A stretch of 64,000 nucleotides of DNA, taken from Firmicutes bacterium ASF500. GTDB lineage: Bacteria; Bacillota; Clostridia; Oscillospirales; Oscillospiraceae. The DNA lies in the NCBI GenBank assembly GCA_000492175.2, contig CP097573.1:1736001-1800000 (forward strand), read 5' to 3'. Shown piece after piece: positions 40,188-48,269 of the stretch. The position numbers and the translations under genes are program-made. Positions within the stretch are counted from its first letter, which is position 1; each line of letters begins with the position of its first letter. Below the pieces are notes generated by a model, which saw only the letters and a list, made by a program, of their open reading frames with translations, searched no databases and was not told where the DNA came from.

Positions 40188-40239
40188 AAAGAAATCTGAT
40201 ATAGCCTAATATTATACCATATCAGATTTCTTTTTGCAA
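40188..40239 (-). promoter_or_regulatory. smc promoter embedded in the terminator hairpin of the lar–nik unit
   Basis: The arms AAAGAAATCTGATAT and ATATCAGATTTCTTT (40188–40235) form a hairpin followed on the minus strand by T residues, and the stop codon of the ABC ATPase lies inside its loop. The same bases give, on the minus strand, TTGCAA (40234–40239), a 17-base spacer and TATAAT (40211–40216), reading toward smc. Confidence 0.7.
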
Positions 40240-40853
40240 GTTTTATACAGGTCCTTCCAGGTGAGCACCCGGGTACACAGCTGGGACAGGAGGGCGGCGT
40301 CGTGGCTGACGATGAGCATGCCCAGCCCCCGCCGCTCCCCCTGGTCCAGTAGGAAGCGCCACAGCTGGGCCTGGGTAACCAGGTCCAGCATGGCGGAGAC
40401 CTCGTCGCACAGGAGAAATTTCAGCTCCGGCCTAAGAGCCCGGGCCACGCAGACGCGCTGGAGCTCCCCGCCGGACAGCTCTGAGGGGTACCGCTCCAGC
40501 CAGCTGTCCCGGACCCCCAGGCCGTCCAGAAGCGTCCGGTCCACGGGCCCCGCCTCGTAGAGGGCCCGCCCCAGGGGCAGGAGGGGGTCCACCGCCTCCT
40601 CCGGGTGCTGCCACAGCAGCTGTACCGGGCAGAAGCCCCGGTATTGGGACAGCGGGCGGCCATCCAGCAGTACCCGCCCTCCCTGGGGCTCCTCCCATCC
40701 GGCCAGCAGGCGGCACAGGGTAGTCTTCCCCCGCCCGCTGGGGGCGGACAGGCCCACCCGCTCCCCGGCCTCCAGCGCGAGGCTCACCCCCTCCAGGGGC
40801 GCGCCCCTCTGCCGGGGGTAGCGGAAGGTGAGATTTTGGGCTTCCAGGGTCAT
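40212..40853 (-). CDS. Nik/Opp-type ABC transporter ATP-binding protein (second ATPase)
   Basis: A 213-residue ATPase, shorter than usual for this class. It has Walker A APSGRGKTT, the signature ELSGGELQRVCVARAL and Walker B KFLLCDEVSAMLDLVT, and the switch His in IVSHD. The C-terminal oligopeptide-transporter extension found in DppF/OppF is absent, as in NikE-like subunits. The ATG after GGAGG is used; the longer reading would start in the upstream repeat. It is the last gene of the leftward unit that begins with larE, so it probably powers nickel uptake together with the first ATPase. Confidence 0.88.
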   Translation of the reverse strand: MTLEAQNLTFRYPRQRGAPLEGVSLALEAGERVGLSAPSGRGKTTLCRLLAGWEEPQGGRVLLDGRPLSQYRGFCPVQLLWQHPEEAVDPLLPLGRALYEAGPVDRTLLDGLGVRDSWLERYPSELSGGELQRVCVARALRPELKFLLCDEVSAMLDLVTQAQLWRFLLDQGERRGLGMLIVSHDAALLSQLCTRVLTWKDLYKTCKKKSDMV

Positions 40854-40873
40854 ACAACGCCTCCATTTTTCTT

Positions 40874-40900
40874 TGTAGGGGCGGATATCATCCGCCCGCT
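40874..40900. repeat. Half copy of a family A repeat
   Basis: Only the left arm TGTAGGGGCGGATATCATCC plus GCCCG is present, between the two ABC ATPase genes. Confidence 0.75.
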
Positions 40901-40929
40901 TTGATCGAAGCATAGCGGGGAAAACGCCC

Positions 40930-41745
40930 TCAGTCACCGTCTGCGGCGGCGACAGCTCCCTCGGGGAGGGAGCCCTCGAACTCATTGCTTGGCATCGCCC
41001 GCCACAGGGCAAGGCTGTAGGGGTGGGTCAGCCCCTCGCCGGTCTGGAAGCGGCGGGCGGGGACCTCATCCACTGTCCGCCCCTCCCGGAGCACCACGAT
41101 CTTGTGGGCCGCGGCCCGGGCCAGACCCAGGTCGTGGGTGATGAAGAGGACCCCGGCTCCCTCCCCGGCCAGCTCCCGGAAGTGGCCCAGCACCCGCCCG
41201 GCGGACTTGGCGTCCAGGCCTGGGGTGGGCTCGTCGGCAATGATGAGCCAGGGTGACTCCATCACGGCGCAGGCGATGAGCACCCGCCGGGCCATCCCCC
41301 CGGACAGCTGGAAGGGGTACAGCTCCTCGGTCTCCGGCCCCAGGCCATAGCGCTCCAGCACCTGACGGCACCGGGCCCGGGCGGCGGGGCTGTTCTCCCC
41401 CCGGCGGACCTGGGGTCCCACCTTCATCATGGGGTCCAGGTAGGTGACCCCCTGGGGGATGAGGGCGATCTCCCTCCCACGCAGGGCCTCCGCCCGTTCC
41501 CGGGTGAGGGGGGCTCCGCCGTAGCGGATGGTCCCCGAAACCTGGGCGTTCCGGGGGAGTATGTGGAGAATGGCGTGGGCCAGCAGGCTCTTGCCCGCTC
41601 CGCTCTCCCCCACCACCGCCAGCACCTGCCCCGGCTCCACCGCCAGAGACAGCCCCCGGAGGGCGGACAGCGGCCTCCGGGACAGCCCCCGGCCATAGCG
41701 GGCAAAGCTGACCCACAGATTTTCTACCGATAAAATGGGCTCCAT
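40930..41745 (-). CDS. Nik/Opp-type ABC transporter ATP-binding protein (first ATPase)
   Basis: A 271-residue ATPase of the DppD/NikD type. Walker A VGESGAGKSLLAHAIL, the Q-loop IPQGVTYLDPMMKVG, the signature QLSGGMARRVLIACAVM (an unusual MARR in place of the common QRQR), and Walker B WLIIADEPTPGLD are present, with the switch ITHDLG. After it the C terminus is short. It lies 10 bases after the permease gene. With the second ATPase it would form the heterodimeric motor. Confidence 0.9.
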   Translation of the reverse strand: MEPILSVENLWVSFARYGRGLSRRPLSALRGLSLAVEPGQVLAVVGESGAGKSLLAHAILHILPRNAQVSGTIRYGGAPLTRERAEALRGREIALIPQGVTYLDPMMKVGPQVRRGENSPAARARCRQVLERYGLGPETEELYPFQLSGGMARRVLIACAVMESPWLIIADEPTPGLDAKSAGRVLGHFRELAGEGAGVLFITHDLGLARAAAHKIVVLREGRTVDEVPARRFQTGEGLTHPYSLALWRAMPSNEFEGSLPEGAVAAADGD

Positions 41746-41755
41746 CGTCCGCCTC

Positions 41756-42568
41756 CTATTCCTGCGCGCTGGCGGGGGCCAGAAGCAGCCGCAGCCGCTC
41801 CCCCGCCAGGGCGAAGAGGGATACCGTCGCCGCCAGGGCCAGCCCGGGGAACAGGGCCAGCCACCACCGCCCGGTGGTGAGATAGGCCATGCTCTCCGAA
41901 AGAATCACTCCGATAGCCGGCTCCTCCGGCGGCAGGCCGAAGCCCAGAAAGGTGACGCTGGCCTCGTGGAGGATGGCGTGGGGGAACTGGAGGATCAGCC
42001 CCGCCAGCAGCTGGGGCAGCAGATGGGGCACAATGTGGCCGGTCAGAACGCGCCCCCACGGGACCCCCATCCGCCGGGCCATCTGGAGATAGGGTGCCTG
42101 CCTCAGCTGGAGCGCCTCCCCCCGGAGCACCCGGGCCAGGGCGGGCCAGTGGCTCAGCGCCACCCCCAGGGTCACCCCCCAGAAGCCCCGACCGCAGGCC
42201 AGGGAGATGAGGATGATGAGCAGAATATGGGGCACCCCCATCACCAGGTCGATGAGCCAGGAAATGGCGCTGTCCACCCACCCCCCAAGGGCGGCGGAGG
42301 CCGTCCCCAGGGCCAGGGCGGCGGCGGCGCTGACGGCGGAGGTGAGCAGTCCCAGCCGGATGCTGAGGGACAGTCCGGCCAGGGTGCGCCCCAGCATATC
42401 CCGGCCCAGCCAGTCGGTGCCGAAGGGGTGGGCCGGGCAGGGGGGGAGGTTTTTTTGAGAAAAATCGGCGGCGGCGTCCGGCAGGAGGGCCCCGGCCAGC
42501 GTCACGGCGCACAGCGCCCCCCCGGCCAGGAGAAGCAGCAGGAGGGTGCTTTGACGGCGGTTTTTCAC
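41756..42568 (-). CDS. Nik/Opp-type ABC transporter permease (NikC/DppC-like)
   Basis: A 270-residue membrane permease with about six segments. The N-terminal HPFGTDWLGRDMLGRTLAGLSLSIRLG is the hallmark of the OppC/NikC subfamily, and the ATPase-docking loop is QMARRMGVPWGRVLTGHIVPHLLP. It overlaps the NikB-like gene by 4 bases (ATGA). Together the two form the membrane pore. Nickel specificity is not readable from the sequence and is inferred from the lar neighbours. Confidence 0.9.
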   Translation of the reverse strand: MKNRRQSTLLLLLLAGGALCAVTLAGALLPDAAADFSQKNLPPCPAHPFGTDWLGRDMLGRTLAGLSLSIRLGLLTSAVSAAAALALGTASAALGGWVDSAISWLIDLVMGVPHILLIILISLACGRGFWGVTLGVALSHWPALARVLRGEALQLRQAPYLQMARRMGVPWGRVLTGHIVPHLLPQLLAGLILQFPHAILHEASVTFLGFGLPPEEPAIGVILSESMAYLTTGRWWLALFPGLALAATVSLFALAGERLRLLLAPASAQE

Positions 42569-43551
42569 TGGGCGGCCGCCCCCTTCCGAATGCGGGGGTC
42601 GATGACGCCGTAGAGCAGGTCGGCGGTGAGACTGCCCCCGAAAACCAGGGCGGCGGTGACCACCGTGATGCCCAGCAGAAGGGGCATGTCGCTGCCCAGT
42701 CCGGCGCTGACCGCCGCCTGACCCAGGCCGGGGTAGGAGAACACCTGCTCCACCAGCACCGACCCGCCCACAATCTCCCCGATGGAGGCGAATTGCAGGG
42801 TGAGGGCGGGCAAGGCCACGTTGCGCAGAACGTGGCGGCGGAGGATACGCCCCTCCCCCCGGGCCCGGGCGAAGAGGATGTAGTCACTGTCCAGCACGTC
42901 CGCCGCCTTCTCCCGGGTGTGGAGGGCGATGTGCGCCGCCCCGGTGAGGGACAGAGTGAGAGCGGGCAGAACGGCGTGGCGCAGACGCTGGACCAGGGTG
43001 ACGGACGCCGCCTCCGTCCCGATGGGGACAGCCATCCCGATGGGCAGCACCCTCAGCCACACGGCAAAGATCATGAGCAGCAGCAGGGCCAGCCAGAAAG
43101 CGGGGGTGCTGGAGACTGCCAGGCAGCAGCCCCGAACCAGCCTGTCAGGCCACCGGCCCCGGCTGGCCCCGGCCAGCAGTCCCAGCCCCAGCCCCAGCGC
43201 CCCGGACATCAGCCACGCGAACACCAGCACGCCAAGGGAGGCGGACAGCCGCTGTCCGATGACCTCCGCCACCGGGCGGCGGTAGAGCAGGGAGGTCCCC
43301 AAATCCCCCCGGAGGGCGCCTCCGAGCCAGCTCAAATACCGCTCCGCCGCCGGGGTATCCGCCCCCCAATATGCCTCCAGCCTCGCCACCTGCTCCGGCG
43401 ACATGGACCCCAGCGCCGCCTGACCCACGTTGGTCTGGAGAGGGTCCAGAGGCGAGGCGTCCATGAGCAGAAAGGCCGTCAGGCTCACCCCCAGAAGGAG
43501 GAGGGCCATGCGGACCAGCTTTTTGGCGGTGAATTTTAATCGGTGTCTCAT
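42565..43551 (-). CDS. Nik/Opp-type ABC transporter permease (NikB/DppB-like)
   Basis: A 328-residue permease. The N terminus KKLVRMALLLLGVSLTAFLLMDASPLDPL is the typical OppB/NikB opening segment; YLSWLGGALRGDLGTSLLYRRPVAEVI and the loop DYILFARARGEGRILRRHVLRNVALPAL (EAA-type) follow. Normal length. Located between the solute-binding protein gene, from which a family B repeat separates it, and the second permease gene, which it overlaps. Confidence 0.92.
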   Translation of the reverse strand: MRHRLKFTAKKLVRMALLLLGVSLTAFLLMDASPLDPLQTNVGQAALGSMSPEQVARLEAYWGADTPAAERYLSWLGGALRGDLGTSLLYRRPVAEVIGQRLSASLGVLVFAWLMSGALGLGLGLLAGASRGRWPDRLVRGCCLAVSSTPAFWLALLLLMIFAVWLRVLPIGMAVPIGTEAASVTLVQRLRHAVLPALTLSLTGAAHIALHTREKAADVLDSDYILFARARGEGRILRRHVLRNVALPALTLQFASIGEIVGGSVLVEQVFSYPGLGQAAVSAGLGSDMPLLLGITVVTAALVFGGSLTADLLYGVIDPRIRKGAAAQ

Positions 43552-43566
43552 TGATAACCTCCGGCC

Positions 43567-43649
43567 TGTAGGGCGGGACGACTCGGCCCGCCGTCCACGG
43601 AGAATGTGTGCCCTCGGGGGACGGCGCGCCGGGGTCGTCGCGCCCTACA
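43567..43649. repeat. Palindromic repeat, family B, between binding-protein and permease genes
   Basis: Starts TGTAGGGCGGGACGACTCGG and ends GGGGTCGTCGCGCCCTACAC. The stop codon of the binding protein (TAG, 43645–43647) is part of its end. Confidence 0.85.
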
Positions 43650-45210
43650 CATCCCATTCCCACCGGTCCACGTTGTTGACGATGGACCAGCCGTGGCCGT
43701 GGGGGTGTATTTTCTGTTCGGCCACCTGGAGGCCGTCCCGGACCCAGTACAGGTGGTCCACGTTCACCAGCCACACCCAGGGGGCATCCTTGGCGATCTC
43801 CTCCTGAGCCGCCTGCCACAGGGCGTAGGACTCCTCCAGATCGGTGCAGGCCAGGGCGGCGTCCATCAGCTCGTCTGCCCGTTCGTTGGAATAGGGGGAG
43901 TAGAGAGCGCTGTCCGAGCCGGGGGCGGTGTGATAGATGTTGTACAGCTCCATGGGGGTGTGGGCCCCCCAGCCCCAGACCAGAGGGTTGCTGAGAGCGT
44001 CGGTATAGGCGGTGTCCCAGCCCACGCCCTTGATGTCTGTCTCAATGCCCAGCTCCTTGAGCTGGTTGGCCAGCTCAGCGGCCAGCCCCTGTCGCACCGA
44101 GTCCCCGGCGGCGTAGTAGATGGTCAGCGCGGCCCGGACCCCGTCCTTCTCCCGAACGCCGTCCGGCCCGGCCAGCCAGCCCGCCCCGGCCAGCAGTTCA
44201 GCGGCCTTCGCCCGGTCGTGCTCTATCTCATTCACAGGGCTGTACCAGGGCATTCCGTCGCACACGCTGTAGGCGGGGGTGCCATAACCGTTGAGCACAT
44301 GGTCGATCATCGCCTGACGGTCCACACCCATGTTGATGGCCTGACGGACCATGATGCTGTCGCCGGTGAACACGGTTCCGGTCAGTACAGCGGAGGGCGA
44401 GGCGAAAACGGCGGGCAGGTTGACCCCCCGGTTGTCCACACTCTTGACGGACAGCAGGGAGAAGCCGTCCACGGCCTGGCTGGCGTAGGGGGCGGAGGTG
44501 TAGGCCAGGTCGGCCTGGCCCGCCTGGACGGCCAGAAAGGCGGCGTCCTCCTCCATGAACAGGATGGTCACCCGCTTCATTTTGGGCTTTTCTCCATAAT
44601 AGTCCGGGTTGGCCTCCAGAATGATCTGCTGGCCCCGGTCCCACTGCTTCAGGATGTACCGCCCGGAGCCGATGGGACTGCTCCCGTAGCTGGCCGGGTC
44701 ATAGGCGTGCTCCGGCACGATGCCCACCACGGCCATGGTGTAGGGCCAGATGGAGAAGGGGGTCTTCATGTGAAAAACCACCGTGGCCTCGTCCGCCGCC
44801 TCGGCGTAGTCCAGCATGGTGAAATCGTTCACCGAGCTGGCGGTCTTGGCCGTGTTATAGGTGAAGGCCACGTCGGAGGCGGTGAGGGGCTCCCCGTCGG
44901 TGAACCTTACGCCCTCCCGAATGGTGACCGTCCATGTGAGACCGTCCTCACTGACGCTCATATCTGTAGCCAGGTCGTAACCGATGGTCAGGTCGGGGTT
45001 GGTCACCGTCAGGGTGGACTGAATCAGCGGCTCATGGACGTGCTCCCCCGCCCCCCAGCCGAAGGCCGGGTCGAACCCCGCCTCCGGCTCGGAGGTAGGC
45101 CCCATGACCACGGTGACGCCGGCTCGGTCCCGAACCACCTCACCCGCCGGAGCGGCCTGACAGCCAGTCAGGAAGGTGAGGGCCAGGAGGATGGCGATGA
45201 TTTTTTTCAT
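43645..45210 (-). CDS. Extracellular solute-binding lipoprotein (NikA/DppA family), probable nickel binder
   Basis: A 521-residue binding protein of ABC family 5. The lipobox is FLTGC (Cys17), giving a membrane-anchored lipoprotein. The family block IREGVRFTDGEPLTASDVAFTYNTA and the later RQAINMGVDRQAMIDHVLNGYGTPA are clear. The C terminus has HPHGHGW and other His residues that could take part in metal binding, though E. coli NikA binds nickel through chelators and one His. Peptide specificity is an alternative; position directly behind larC favours nickel. The stop codon lies in a family B repeat. Confidence 0.88.
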   Translation of the reverse strand: MKKIIAILLALTFLTGCQAAPAGEVVRDRAGVTVVMGPTSEPEAGFDPAFGWGAGEHVHEPLIQSTLTVTNPDLTIGYDLATDMSVSEDGLTWTVTIREGVRFTDGEPLTASDVAFTYNTAKTASSVNDFTMLDYAEAADEATVVFHMKTPFSIWPYTMAVVGIVPEHAYDPASYGSSPIGSGRYILKQWDRGQQIILEANPDYYGEKPKMKRVTILFMEEDAAFLAVQAGQADLAYTSAPYASQAVDGFSLLSVKSVDNRGVNLPAVFASPSAVLTGTVFTGDSIMVRQAINMGVDRQAMIDHVLNGYGTPAYSVCDGMPWYSPVNEIEHDRAKAAELLAGAGWLAGPDGVREKDGVRAALTIYYAAGDSVRQGLAAELANQLKELGIETDIKGVGWDTAYTDALSNPLVWGWGAHTPMELYNIYHTAPGSDSALYSPYSNERADELMDAALACTDLEESYALWQAAQEEIAKDAPWVWLVNVDHLYWVRDGLQVAEQKIHPHGHGWSIVNNVDRWEWDV

Positions 45211-45227: not shown

Positions 45228-45358
45228 TGTAGGGGCGGATATCATCCGCCCGTTATCACAGGTCTGGTATTGCCGTGTAGGGCGGGACGACCCGGCCCGC
45301 CGTGTTTGACCCTGCACGGGCCCTGGAGGACGGCGCGCCGGGGTCGTCGCGCCCTACA
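45228..45358. repeat. Family A half unit followed by a complete family B unit
   Basis: 45228–45252 is the left arm of family A (TGTAGGGGCGGATATCATCC). 45276–45358 is family B (TGTAGGGCGGGACGACCCGG to GGGGTCGTCGCGCCCTACAG). The B end supplies the TAG stop of larC (45354–45356). Both lie between larC and the binding-protein gene inside the operon. Confidence 0.82.
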
Positions 45359-46577
45359 GGGCGTTCATCGCCGCCCGGTACACCGTCTCATAGGGCAGGC
45401 CGTGCTCCCGAGCCAGGGCGGCCACGTCCTCAAATTCCGGTTTGACGTGGGTGACGCCGAAGCCCCCGGCGGTTTTCACCCGCACCGGGCCCCACTGGGT
45501 CTGCACCTGGGTATGCTCGGGCTTGAGGAAATATTTCATCGACAGGCGGGAACGCAGGCCGTTTGTGGTGGTGTGGGCGAATATCTGCCGGATGATATCG
45601 TTCTCCTGCTCGGGGTCGCACAGCACGGTGAGCACCCAGCCGGGCCGGCCCTTTTTCATGGTGCCGGGGGTGGTGTAGGCGTCCAGCGCCCCCGCGTCCA
45701 GCAGACGCTGGCAGGCGAAAGCCAGGGCCTCAGGGGTCATGTCGTCGATGTTGCACACCAGTTCGACGATATCCCCCGATTCCCGGGGCTCCTCCTCCCC
45801 CCAAAAGGCCCGGACGCAGTTGGCCCGCTCGAACTCCTTGGTCCCAACGCCGTAGCCGATTTTTTCCACGTCCATCTCGCCCATGGGGCCGAAGAACTGG
45901 ACAAAGGTTTTCAAAAGCGCCGCCCCGGTGGGGGTACACAGCTCCCCCTGGACCTCCCCGCCGTAGATGGGGATTCCCGTCAGCAGGTTGGCGGTGGCGG
46001 GGGCGGGGACGGGCATAACGCCGTGAGCGCAGCGTACCGTCCCGCTGCCCACGTGGACGGGAGAGGCAGTCACCAGGTCGGGGGCCAGCAGGTGGAGGGC
46101 ATAGCACACGCCAACCACGTCGGCCACCGCGTCCAGCGCCCCCACCTCGTGGAAATGGACATCCCCCACCGCGCACCCGTGGGCCTGGGCCTCCGCCTGA
46201 GCGATGGCGTCGTAGACCTTACGGGCGCGGTCCCGCACGCCCTGGGGCAGGGACAGCCCGTCGATGATCTCCCCGATGTGCCCCGGCGTGGCGTGGTGGT
46301 GATGGTGGTGGTGTTCATGGTGGCACCCGTCATGATGGTCGTGGTCGTGATGGTCGTGCTCGTGCTCCTCATGGCCGTGGACAGTCACCTTCATATGGGT
46401 GCCCGCAATTCCGCTGGTCTTGGCCGCCACGGGGGCGACCTCCACCCCGGGCAGTCCCAGACCGTTCATGGCGTCCAAAAAGGTTTTCTTCTGCTCCTCG
46501 TCCAGCAGCTCATAGAGCGCGGCCATGAGCATATCCCCCGCTGCACCCATATGGCATTCCAGATAAAGCGTTTTCAT
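45354..46577 (-). CDS. larC: Nickel pincer cofactor biosynthesis protein LarC (nickel insertase)
   Basis: A 407-residue cyclometallase that inserts nickel into the pyridinium-dithiocarboxylate nucleotide, using CTP, to finish the nickel-pincer cofactor of lactate racemase and related enzymes. The start MKTLYLECHMGAAGDMLMAAL, the FHEVGALDAVADVVG and the C-terminal GRPGWVLTVLCDP…RLSMKYFL are family marks. Residues 67–100 are extremely His-rich (HDHHDHDHHDGCHHEHHHHHHH), a nickel store or delivery loop. Unlike L. plantarum, where larC needs a ribosomal frameshift, it is one continuous frame. Overlaps larB by 4 bases. Confidence 0.95.
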   Translation of the reverse strand: MKTLYLECHMGAAGDMLMAALYELLDEEQKKTFLDAMNGLGLPGVEVAPVAAKTSGIAGTHMKVTVHGHEEHEHDHHDHDHHDGCHHEHHHHHHHATPGHIGEIIDGLSLPQGVRDRARKVYDAIAQAEAQAHGCAVGDVHFHEVGALDAVADVVGVCYALHLLAPDLVTASPVHVGSGTVRCAHGVMPVPAPATANLLTGIPIYGGEVQGELCTPTGAALLKTFVQFFGPMGEMDVEKIGYGVGTKEFERANCVRAFWGEEEPRESGDIVELVCNIDDMTPEALAFACQRLLDAGALDAYTTPGTMKKGRPGWVLTVLCDPEQENDIIRQIFAHTTTNGLRSRLSMKYFLKPEHTQVQTQWGPVRVKTAGGFGVTHVKPEFEDVAALAREHGLPYETVYRAAMNAL

Positions 46578-47332
46578 TCCAATCCCTCCATTTGGTTTAT
46601 CATACTGGCTAAATATCCGGCTCCGAAGCCGTTGTCGATGTTGACCACACTGCACCCGGAGGCGCAGGAGTTGAGCATAGCCAGCAGGGCGGACAGCCCG
46701 CCGAAGCTGGCCCCGTAGCCCACGCTGGTGGGGACGGCGACGACGGGGCAGTCCACCAGCCCGCCGATGACTGAGGCCAGCGCCCCCTCCATCCCGGCCG
46801 CGGCCACCACGCACCGGGCGTCCATCAGGGGCTCCAGGTTGGCTAAAAGCCGGTGGAGGCCCGCCACCCCCACGTCGTACAGCCGGGTGACCCTGTTGCC
46901 CAGCACCTCAGCGGTGAGGGCGGCCTCCTCGGCCACGGGCATGTCGCTGGTGCCGCCGGTGGCCACCACGATATGGCCCAGAGCGTTCCGCTCCCCGGGG
47001 AAGGCCACGGCCAGCCGGGGGATAGGGTGGTAGTCCAGGGGGACGGTCTTTGAAACCGCCTCCGCCGCCTCCGGGCCGACGCGGGTGATGAGGATGTTCT
47101 GACAACCCCGCTCCCCCATGGCGGCGGCGATGCCGGCGATCTGCTCCGGGGTCTTGCCCGCCCCGTAGATGACCTCCGCCGCCCCCTGGCGCACCCCCCG
47201 GTGCAGGTCCACCTTGGCATAGCCCAGGTCCTCAAAGGGCTGGCGCTTGAGCTGGGACAGGGCCTCCTCCGGGGGGATGGCCTCCTCCGCTACCTGGCGC
47301 AGCAGCTGTAAAATATCGTGCCGGTTGTCCAT
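46574..47332 (-). CDS. larB: Nickel pincer cofactor biosynthesis protein LarB
   Basis: A 252-residue enzyme that carboxylates and hydrolyses nicotinic acid adenine dinucleotide to pyridinium-3,5-biscarboxylic acid mononucleotide, the first step of the cofactor pathway. The N-terminal LGYAKVDLHRGVRQGAAEVIYGAGKTPEQ and the AIR-carboxylase-like core with ATGGTSDMPVAEEAALTAEVLG, AAGMEGALASVIGGLVDCPVVAVPTSVGYGASFGGLSALLAMLNSCASG fit. The C-terminal SCASG…VNIDNGFGAGYLA is typical. It lies between larE and larC in one transcript. Confidence 0.95.
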   Translation of the reverse strand: MDNRHDILQLLRQVAEEAIPPEEALSQLKRQPFEDLGYAKVDLHRGVRQGAAEVIYGAGKTPEQIAGIAAAMGERGCQNILITRVGPEAAEAVSKTVPLDYHPIPRLAVAFPGERNALGHIVVATGGTSDMPVAEEAALTAEVLGNRVTRLYDVGVAGLHRLLANLEPLMDARCVVAAAGMEGALASVIGGLVDCPVVAVPTSVGYGASFGGLSALLAMLNSCASGCSVVNIDNGFGAGYLASMINQMEGLE

Positions 47333-47342
47333 AAAAGCCTCC

Positions 47343-48098
47343 TCAATCGACGGGAACTCTGGGCCGCAGGTCCAGGGTGATTTCTGAAAACAGAGGGGAT
47401 AACGCGGCCAAAATATCCTCTCTGGAATTAAGCGCCAGGGGCATCTGTCCCTCCAGCGCCTGCATCTTGCAGCCGCCGGGGGTCAGGCGCAAGCGGAAGT
47501 CCCGAAAGCCCAGGCGGGCGAGGGCCTCCTCCCCCCGCTCCACCCGCTCCAGGTCCTCACGGGTGATGGCCCGCCCTGTGGGGACCCGGGTGGCGAGACA
47601 GGCGTAGGAGGGCTTGTCCCAGGTGAACAGCCCCGCCTGCCTGGACAGTGCCCGGATGTGCTCCTTGGTCAGCCCGCACTCCCGCAGGGGGGAGCGGACC
47701 TCCAGCTCGGACAGCGCCCGCATACCGGGGCGGTCCCCGGCCTCATCCGAGGCGTTGGTACCGTCCAGAAGGAGGGAAAAGCCCTCTGAGGCCGCGTACT
47801 CTTTCAGCGCGGAGAACAGCCGCCTCTTGCAGTGGTAGCAGCGATCAGGCGGGTTAGAGGTCACCGCCTCATCGGAGAGGATGTCAACCTCAAGGACGGT
47901 CAGGTCTACCCCCAGCTGGCCGCACAGACGGCGGGCATCCTCCAGCTCAAACCGGGGCTGAAAGGGGGTCTTGACGAAGCAGGGCCGCACCTCGGCCCCC
48001 GCCCGGAGGCCCGCCCACAGGAGAAAGGCGGAGTCCACCCCCCCGGAAAAGGCCAGGGCACAGCGGGGATTCTGTTGAAAAAATTGCTCCAGCGTCAC
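47343..48098 (-). CDS. larE: ATP-dependent sulfur transferase LarE
   Basis: A 251-residue PP-loop enzyme that activates the carboxylates of the LarB product by adenylation and replaces oxygen with sulfur. The PP-loop SGGVDS is at 18–23. Cys87 and Cys90 (RCYHCK) and Cys167 (YACLATR) are present; with three such cysteines the enzyme may bind an iron-sulfur cluster for catalytic sulfur transfer rather than sacrifice one cysteine as in L. plantarum. GTG start with GGAGGGATGATTT ahead. It is the first gene after the attenuator leader, so it sees the regulated transcript first. Confidence 0.93.
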   Translation of the reverse strand: MTLEQFFQQNPRCALAFSGGVDSAFLLWAGLRAGAEVRPCFVKTPFQPRFELEDARRLCGQLGVDLTVLEVDILSDEAVTSNPPDRCYHCKRRLFSALKEYAASEGFSLLLDGTNASDEAGDRPGMRALSELEVRSPLRECGLTKEHIRALSRQAGLFTWDKPSYACLATRVPTGRAITREDLERVERGEEALARLGFRDFRLRLTPGGCKMQALEGQMPLALNSREDILAALSPLFSEITLDLRPRVPVD

Positions 48099-48118
48099 AA
48101 ATCATCCCTCCACAGGAC

Positions 48119-48150
48119 AAAAAGAAGGCATACCGGTAGGGTATGCCTTC
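48119..48150 (-). terminator. Attenuator-type terminator directly ahead of larE
   Basis: On the minus strand GAAGGCATACC and GGTATGCCTTC make a perfect 11-bp stem with a 5-base loop, followed by TTTTT. It sits 21 bases before the larE start and after the promoter, so it must act within the operon's own leader. Confidence 0.9.
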
Positions 48151-48233
48151 TGGCAAGCTCCGGACTTCTGTCCCGGAGCGGATCAAGCTTGGGTTTCATT
48201 TGGCCTTCTGGCCTAAGCGCGGCTTCCTGCCGC
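48144..48233 (-). promoter_or_regulatory. Structured leader RNA of the lar–nik operon with three AGAA-loop hairpins
   Basis: The untranslated leader reads three small palindromes with the same loop: GGCC-AGAA-GGCC (48202–48213), GGAC-AGAA-GTCC within a longer GCTCCG stem (48157–48179), and TGCC-AGAA-GGCA (48144–48155). The third shares bases with the 5' arm of the terminator, so the two cannot form at once. This is the layout of a riboswitch or protein-dependent antiterminator. It matches no riboswitch class that I can name. Confidence 0.7.
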
Positions 48234-48239
48234 AGGGAG

Positions 48240-48269
48240 AGTATACCAAATGGAGGGCCTGCCTGTCAA
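48240..48269 (-). promoter_or_regulatory. Promoter of the lar–nik operon
   Basis: On the minus strand TTGACA (48264–48269), 18-base spacer, TATACT (48240–48245). Transcription would begin near 48233, giving a leader of about 115 bases before the terminator. Confidence 0.8.

Follow-up and report, generated by a model that had tools for sequence, protein, structure and literature searches.

The leader of larE, on the minus strand at positions 48233-48106 of the 64,000-nucleotide stretch of DNA analysed here (hereafter, the window), is a real, conserved attenuator that matches no Rfam class. In our main reading, to which we assign a probability of roughly 0.5, this leader acts as an attenuator of transcription and represents a new RNA family; it would be read by an RNA-binding antiterminator, and its regulon would be the supply of the nickel-pincer nucleotide (NPN). 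The computations described below yield a conserved element, its mutual exclusion with a terminator in both sequence and folding, two recurrent target genes, larE and the gene for an S component of an ECF transporter, and a tendency of these two targets to replace each other. In the open-licence literature, we found no description of an RNA element for NPN supply or of an NPN importer.

The leader contains four small hairpins that constitute two copies of a two-hairpin module, with 18-20 nt from one GAAG to the next (Table 1). Hairpin A is followed after 5 bases by hairpin B, which is separated by 22 bases from hairpin A', and then comes TTGCC-AGAA-GGCA, the loop and second half of which form the start of the terminator, AGAAGGCATACC-CTACC-GGTATGCCTTCT followed by TTTT. 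The promoter-like site lies such that the transcript may begin near 48233, close to the first hairpin. An earlier reading made from the sequence only had quoted three AGAA-loop hairpins, all of which are present on the minus strand where it placed them, but its total of three omitted GCGGC-AGGAA-GCCGC, the first hairpin of the transcript. The terminator of that reading does end 21 bases before the GTG codon of larE, but its stem comprises 12 rather than 11 bp. Neither the paired-module organisation nor the second target gene featured in it.

Table 1. Features of the larE leader and of the adjoining lar locus in the window
Feature	Position	Strand	Basis or remark
Promoter-like site TTGACA-18-TATACT	48240..48269	-	11/12 consensus matches; consensus match only
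Hairpin A, GCGGC-AGGAA-GCCGC (module 1)	48219..48233	-	first in transcript
Hairpin B, GGCC-AGAA-GGCC (module 1)	48202..48213	-	
Hairpin A', GCTCCGGGAC-AGAA-GTCCGGAGC (module 2)	48157..48179	-	longer hairpin, AGAA in loop
Hairpin B', TGCC-AGAA-GGCA, antiterminator (module 2)	48144..48155	-	sequence and computed folding of nascent RNA
Intrinsic terminator	48119..48151	-	12-bp stem (48151-48123), then TTTT
Likely ribosome binding site GGAGGG	48106..48111	-	sequence
larE, sulfur insertase of NPN synthesis	47343..48098	-	GTG start; TIGR00268, 235 bits (cut-off 150)
larB	46574..47332	-	NF033503, 279 bits (cut-off 175)
larC	45354..46577 (about)	-	start picked by eye at MKTLYLEC; PF01969, 449.5 bits; TIGR00299 and NF052512 over cut-off
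Five-gene ABC importer, peptide/nickel type, 3' of larC	40212..45210	-	best names: nickel or peptide transport

A gap of 143 nt separates larC from the genes of the ABC importer, none of which produced an NCBIfam match above the cut-off. A family scan of the nine encoded neighbours of the leader detected no regulator families among them. The window genome (G000) encodes LarE, LarB and LarC along with a DUF362 protein; no LarA was detected over the Pfam cut-off. In LarC, the N-terminal part is followed by a stretch that is very rich in His, HDHHDHDHHDGCHHEHHHHHHH (46200-46400).

The leader folds into a structure more stable than expected by chance (z = -4.58), with none of 200 shuffled sequences being equally stable. 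GAAG hairpins were defined as stems with four or more Watson-Crick pairs that carry a GAAG loop; by this rule, our script found four such hairpins in two pairs in the window leader, and none of 5000 dinucleotide shuffles of the leader reached three or more hairpins or a single pair. A terminator-like site by itself is nothing unusual in this DNA (4 found vs 2.5 expected). Search with the Rfam 15 covariance models, including NiCo and mini-ykkC, matched only tRNAs at the gathering score and gave no match to the leader, for which relaxation of the threshold up to E=10 added three unrelated matches at chance level, none of them relevant. On these Rfam results, assignment to a known RNA class was rejected, in agreement with the earlier statement that the leader resembles no class that can be named. 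A CsrA-type site was also considered; such sites have GGA in the loop, and because many of the loops lack GGA, this assignment was rejected from the sequence.

The second copy of the module apparently constitutes a switch. Hairpin B' shares 8 nt with the 5' arm of the terminator, so that the two structures are mutually exclusive, as had been noticed from the sequence. When the window leader was folded at growing lengths, the probability of the antiterminator was 0.98 at 94-100 nt and the hairpin was gone at 109 nt, coincident with the completion of the 3' arm of the terminator; forcing the antiterminator in the complete 142-nt leader costs 8.8 kcal/mol. In five leaders, including two that precede S-component genes, the terminators alone have energies of -19.1 to -29.8 kcal/mol, compared with -2.6 to -7.5 kcal/mol for the antiterminator hairpins. 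Two or more GAAG hairpins are present in 34 larE leaders. The rule of the script assigns a terminator-like stem to 33 of them, although some of these stems may not be the genuine terminator, and a GAAG hairpin excludes the 5' arm of the stem in 25 of the 33. The proposed attenuation by competition between hairpins and a terminator is accordingly borne out by sequence and computed folding. Given that the folding energies favour the terminator, the default state is predicted to be off, such that something must hold the antiterminator, and the bound state would then be ON. In the fold of the 142-nt leader, hairpin A' is opened and the CTCC of its 5' arm pairs with the ribosome binding site, which implies that binding of module 2 might release translation as well.

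To assess conservation, we collected larE loci from two sources, the best 80 of 414 from a scan of genome contigs and 30 from 300 genomes of the window's family, with the contigs of the two sets overlapping in part. The resulting 110 leaders reduced to 104 that were distinct over the last 150 nt, and 102 were counted once the copy from the window and a leader shorter than 150 nt had been set aside. These 102 leaders contain 91 GAAG hairpins, compared with a mean of 1.95 and at most 6 in the shuffle sets. By a strict rule that demands two hairpins 17-21 nt apart, a pair is present in 25 of the 102 leaders, in records from Lawsonibacter, Anaeromassilibacillus, Intestinimonas, Mediterraneibacter and Emergencia, among others, and in none of 100 shuffle sets. 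The sequence-only reading had made the function of the hairpins depend on their presence in the lar leaders of relatives, and there they are found. The strict pair is missing from the other 77 leaders, in many of which larE closely follows another ORF. The stems vary freely among relatives and the GAAG is kept.

The module itself was modelled from 46 candidates (32 first and 14 second copies), 33 of which were carried on with the linker padded with N. An initial alignment (A1) was dropped on account of gaps inside stems, and L091 and L044m2 were later removed due to a register error, leaving 31 modules in alignment A2 (28 first and 3 second copies). Ten second copies, including that of L002, the closest relative of the window, were dropped because of their poorer fit to the two-loop rule. 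Because mostly first copies were aligned, the model describes first copies; second copies are looser. The loop is mostly ANGAA in hairpin A and NGAA in hairpin B, with the rest of the stems free; tetra- or pentaloops closed by C-G are present in 29 of the 31 modules for each hairpin, and linkers of 4-7 nt connect the 5-bp stems. Across the ten base pairs, 96.5 % of the 310 cells are paired, a percentage inflated by the choice of modules with a hairpin finder and the use of 31 of the 46 candidates. Sliding the partner by 1-3 columns reduced the pairing to 21-43 %. Both sides were altered in 94 pair cells vs 29.5 in shuffles; the number of pairs with any such change, 8 vs 7.6, is not above shuffles. 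It could be argued that the leader is only a terminator accompanied by look-alike hairpins, with no regulation involved, given that the GAAG loop of the antiterminator is complementary to the CUUC before the U run of the terminator, and this alone could keep the GAAG. We consider such an explanation hardly credible because conservation of the GAAG extends to module 1, which lies at a distance from the terminator, and to leaders that have no terminator, and because shuffled sequences do not produce the pattern.

A covariance model (R1) built from the modules of larE leaders only was then used for blind searches. In the window genome, where 150 of the 1451 first-look candidates were scored, module 1 of the lar leader reached 30.4 bits and the next match 18.4 bits; a larger regulon in this genome was therefore rejected, as no site other than the lar leader gave a convincing score. 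Of the eight weaker matches, three were inspected (L115-L117), and all of these lie in long ORFs. Taken alone, module 2 of the window leader scored no more than 14.3 bits against the family model (E = 1). At E 0.02, R1 produced 21 matches in the 300 genomes of the family: 4 before larE, 6 before genes of one family of membrane proteins (in G068, G091, G058, G014, G291 and G055) and 11 elsewhere. The last 11 lie in long ORFs and were read as coding; TTTTT does not occur in the 150 nt after any of them, and of the ten of these ORFs that were scanned, nine match a Pfam family over the cut-off and one matches none. At the level of the class (392 genomes), where stricter filters were applied and weak matches were lost, R1 gave three matches: the window itself, a site in an ORF that by eye resembles topoisomerase I, and a site that again precedes a gene for that membrane protein, in G605. 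The latter genome belongs to a family other than that of the window.

The membrane protein that represents this second target is an S component of an ECF transporter (PF12822, 67.6 and 59 bits, cut-off 30.7). No NCBIfam equivalog scored over the cut-off, and no relative in the PDB was detected by sequence at E 0.001; the protein has at least 8000 relatives, with no settled substrate name among the matches listed. We inspected 30 S-component loci, 4 of which came from the genomes that had led us to the S component. In 9 of the remaining 26 (L162, L163, L167, L168, L169, L176, L181, L185 and L187), R1 matches the sense strand shortly upstream of the gene, 6 of these at E < 0.05. Four loci (L159, L167, L169 and L185) have no clear terminator, and there the module lies in or beside a stretch able to pair with the ribosome binding site, as read by eye and, for the place of L159, as folded; translational versions of the element may thus exist. 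At that place (L147, 5900-6080), the computed fold shows a stem covering the ribosome binding site that encloses the two-hairpin module. Several other genes recur beside the S component. P-loop ORFs, kinases by eye, adjoin it in L185, L181, L187 and L161; the two that were scanned had no Pfam match over the cut-off, and the long form had none at E 0.01. DUF3842 genes precede the S component in L163, L168 and L187 (166 bits in the scan of L187, by eye in the other two), and DUF362-like proteins are found beside it in L170 and L188.

The two targets of the element tend to replace each other. Among the 300 genomes, 106 encode the S component (E 1e-25) and 154 encode LarE (E 1e-30), and the two occur together in 14 genomes compared with 54.4 expected (Fisher p = 7e-24, a test that ignores kinship and covers partly incomplete genomes). 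With LarE at E 1e-60, 10 genomes have both vs 38.2 expected (p = 9e-14, again ignoring kinship). The tendency is also apparent within genera: 23 genera hold both kinds, with 40 LarE-only genomes, 45 S-component-only genomes and 6 double carriers, whereas dealing the labels within each genus gives 23.3 expected double carriers and a minimum of 14 in 5000 draws, a control that is conditional on the presence of at least one of the genes and hence leans towards exclusion. Within the genus of the window, LarE alone occurs in the window genome, the S component alone in four genomes and both in one.

The distribution of LarA (PF09861, E 1e-25) and LarC bears on what the S component might carry. LarA is about as frequent in genomes with the S component but no LarE (30/92) as in those with LarE (51/154), and rarer in those with neither (7/54; p = 0.01 for 30/92 vs 7/54); across all 300 genomes, the S component shows no overall association with LarA (36/106 vs 52/194, p = 0.23). 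Of the 92 LarE-negative S-component genomes, 62 lack a strong LarA and 85 lack LarC, the latter count coming from tables read by eye. The idea that S-component genomes retain LarC was accordingly rejected (7/92 do so), and the LarA counts weaken the view that NPN would be imported purely for LarA. Individual loci include that of G084, a genome that has LarA, lacks a LarE match and carries the S component directly after larC, and those of G268 and G012, in which larA is the neighbour; the G012 match is partial and contains an internal stop. An alternative is that the S component imports another vitamin and the element answers a general signal, with the replacement being a by-product of lifestyle and kinship. 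The absence of LarC and strong LarA from most of these genomes would fit such a scenario, as would the very large size of the PF12822 family, for which some sources give the names ThiT or FmnP; the replacement within 23 genera and the equal frequency of LarA with the S component alone and with LarE run against it, and we regard it as unlikely. The more economical reading is that the S component is an importer, here predicted, of NPN, its nucleoside or a late precursor, in place of synthesis. Since the same element precedes both larE and the S-component gene and these genes tend to replace each other, the element probably controls NPN supply, either by synthesis or by the predicted import. A weakness of this reading is that, with LarC and strong LarA mostly missing, finished NPN would have to come in, and users other than LarA would have to exist.

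DUF362 Fe-S proteins may be one such NPN-using family, so far unrecognised. A local hhalign match between these proteins and LarA spans 49 columns (E 4.9e-5, probability 68), and H160, K170 and H186 of the DUF362 protein of the window genome, which are invariant in five DUF362 sequences, align with His174, Lys184 and His200 of LarA. His174 of LarA is catalytic and K184 and His200 bind NPN, and DUF362 and DUF2088 belong to one Pfam clan (PMC11770544). The shared stretch was noticed in L224 from the window genome (G000:C1 about 396774), in L220-L223, and in L170 and L188 beside the S component.

The mechanism that we propose for the element combines these observations. The two-hairpin module occurs twice, its second copy overlaps the 5' arm of the intrinsic terminator, and without help the terminator would win and the operon would be off. 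A putative RNA-binding antiterminator protein would read the GAAG loops of neighbouring hairpins, working like the ANTAR proteins without being one of them, and this trans-acting factor would keep the antiterminator hairpin in place during the passage of RNA polymerase. The genes under control would be larE-larB-larC for synthesis or, elsewhere, that of the S component, which would import the cofactor or its nucleoside. An antiterminator protein is our first choice as the bound factor because the loops are small and repeated, the spacing is fixed, the stems are free, the default state is predicted to be off and the layout is ANTAR-like. Points that speak against the main reading are the lack of a regulator family among the nine scanned neighbours, the 77 larE leaders in which the strict pair is missing, and the S component showing no association with LarA across all genomes.

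The main rival is a riboswitch, with the paired hairpins as the direct binding site of NPN, a precursor or Ni2+. Thiamine and cobalamin riboswitches control both synthesis and ECF uptake. It is typical of riboswitches for cofactors that one element stands in front of biosynthetic genes in certain genomes and in front of the gene for a predicted importer elsewhere; the lar case would concern NPN. The guanidine-II (mini-ykkC) riboswitch, which consists of two tiny hairpins with short conserved ACGR loops, demonstrates that such a pair can suffice, and there is no regulator gene among the nine scanned neighbours of the leader. The lar element differs from guanidine-II in its ANGAA and NGAA loops and in the lack of an Rfam match. 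The NiCo (czcD) riboswitch, a four-way junction before metal exporters, comes to mind because of nickel; as stated above, the leader matches no such family even at E=10. Two features weigh against a riboswitch: the default fold is off and binding of module 2 would turn it on, the wrong sign for feedback by an end product, and no large conserved core exists beyond the loops. On balance, we consider a riboswitch possible but rather doubtful. More doubtful still is the far-reaching version of this idea, in which an organometallic nickel cofactor (NPN or its nucleoside) would have its first riboswitch in this element and its first importer in the second target, and NPN would be a vitamin that gut bacteria share, used by LarA and perhaps by DUF362 proteins.

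One RNA motif links the synthesis of a cofactor with an unnamed ECF S component that tends to take the place of this synthesis, also within genera, and this second target is the best clue to the function of the element. If the assignment is right, NPN would be traded between bacteria like a vitamin, a large subfamily of S components would have its substrate assigned, and either an antitermination factor or a riboswitch, in both cases new, would await isolation.

Among known systems, the closest parallel to the antiterminator protein that we prefer is provided by the dual-hexaloop antiterminators of ANTAR proteins (EutV/eutP, NasR, AmiR), which resemble the lar element in the pair of small conserved-loop hairpins with a short linker, the overlap of the last hairpin with the terminator and the termination by default (PMC3369931; PMC8934654). 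The likeness to ANTAR sites suggested by the sequence-only reading thus stands for the layout (linkers of 4-7 nt and the last hairpin in the terminator) and fails for the loop, as that reading itself had allowed. ANTAR targets are described as two adjacent hairpins, with a linker of 5-12 nt in the eut genes of E. faecalis, that need hexaloops with A at position 1 and G at position 4 (PMC3369931), and tetraloops may be shut out (PMC8934654). In contrast, the lar element has GAAG loops of 4-5 nt closed by C-G, two modules with four hairpins and other target genes, and its loops opened to six nucleotides read CNGAAG, with C1 and A4; by the hexaloop rule of PMC3369931, a canonical ANTAR target was rejected. 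A non-canonical variant, with an ANTAR protein reading an altered loop, could draw on the shared layout and on the presence of an ANTAR domain in 24 of the 27 motif genomes, the only genomes in which it was counted. No ANTAR match was obtained in the other three (G291, G061 and G167, which are 97, 98 and 80 % complete), the first two of which are nearly complete, and together with the divergent loops this makes the variant decidedly unlikely. The only ANTAR protein found in the window genome (L112, G000:C1 about 1364919) follows an ORF that by eye resembles glutamine synthetase. Tandem-hairpin antitermination is known as a kind, and the comparison suggests that the lar element is a variant of it outside the described families.
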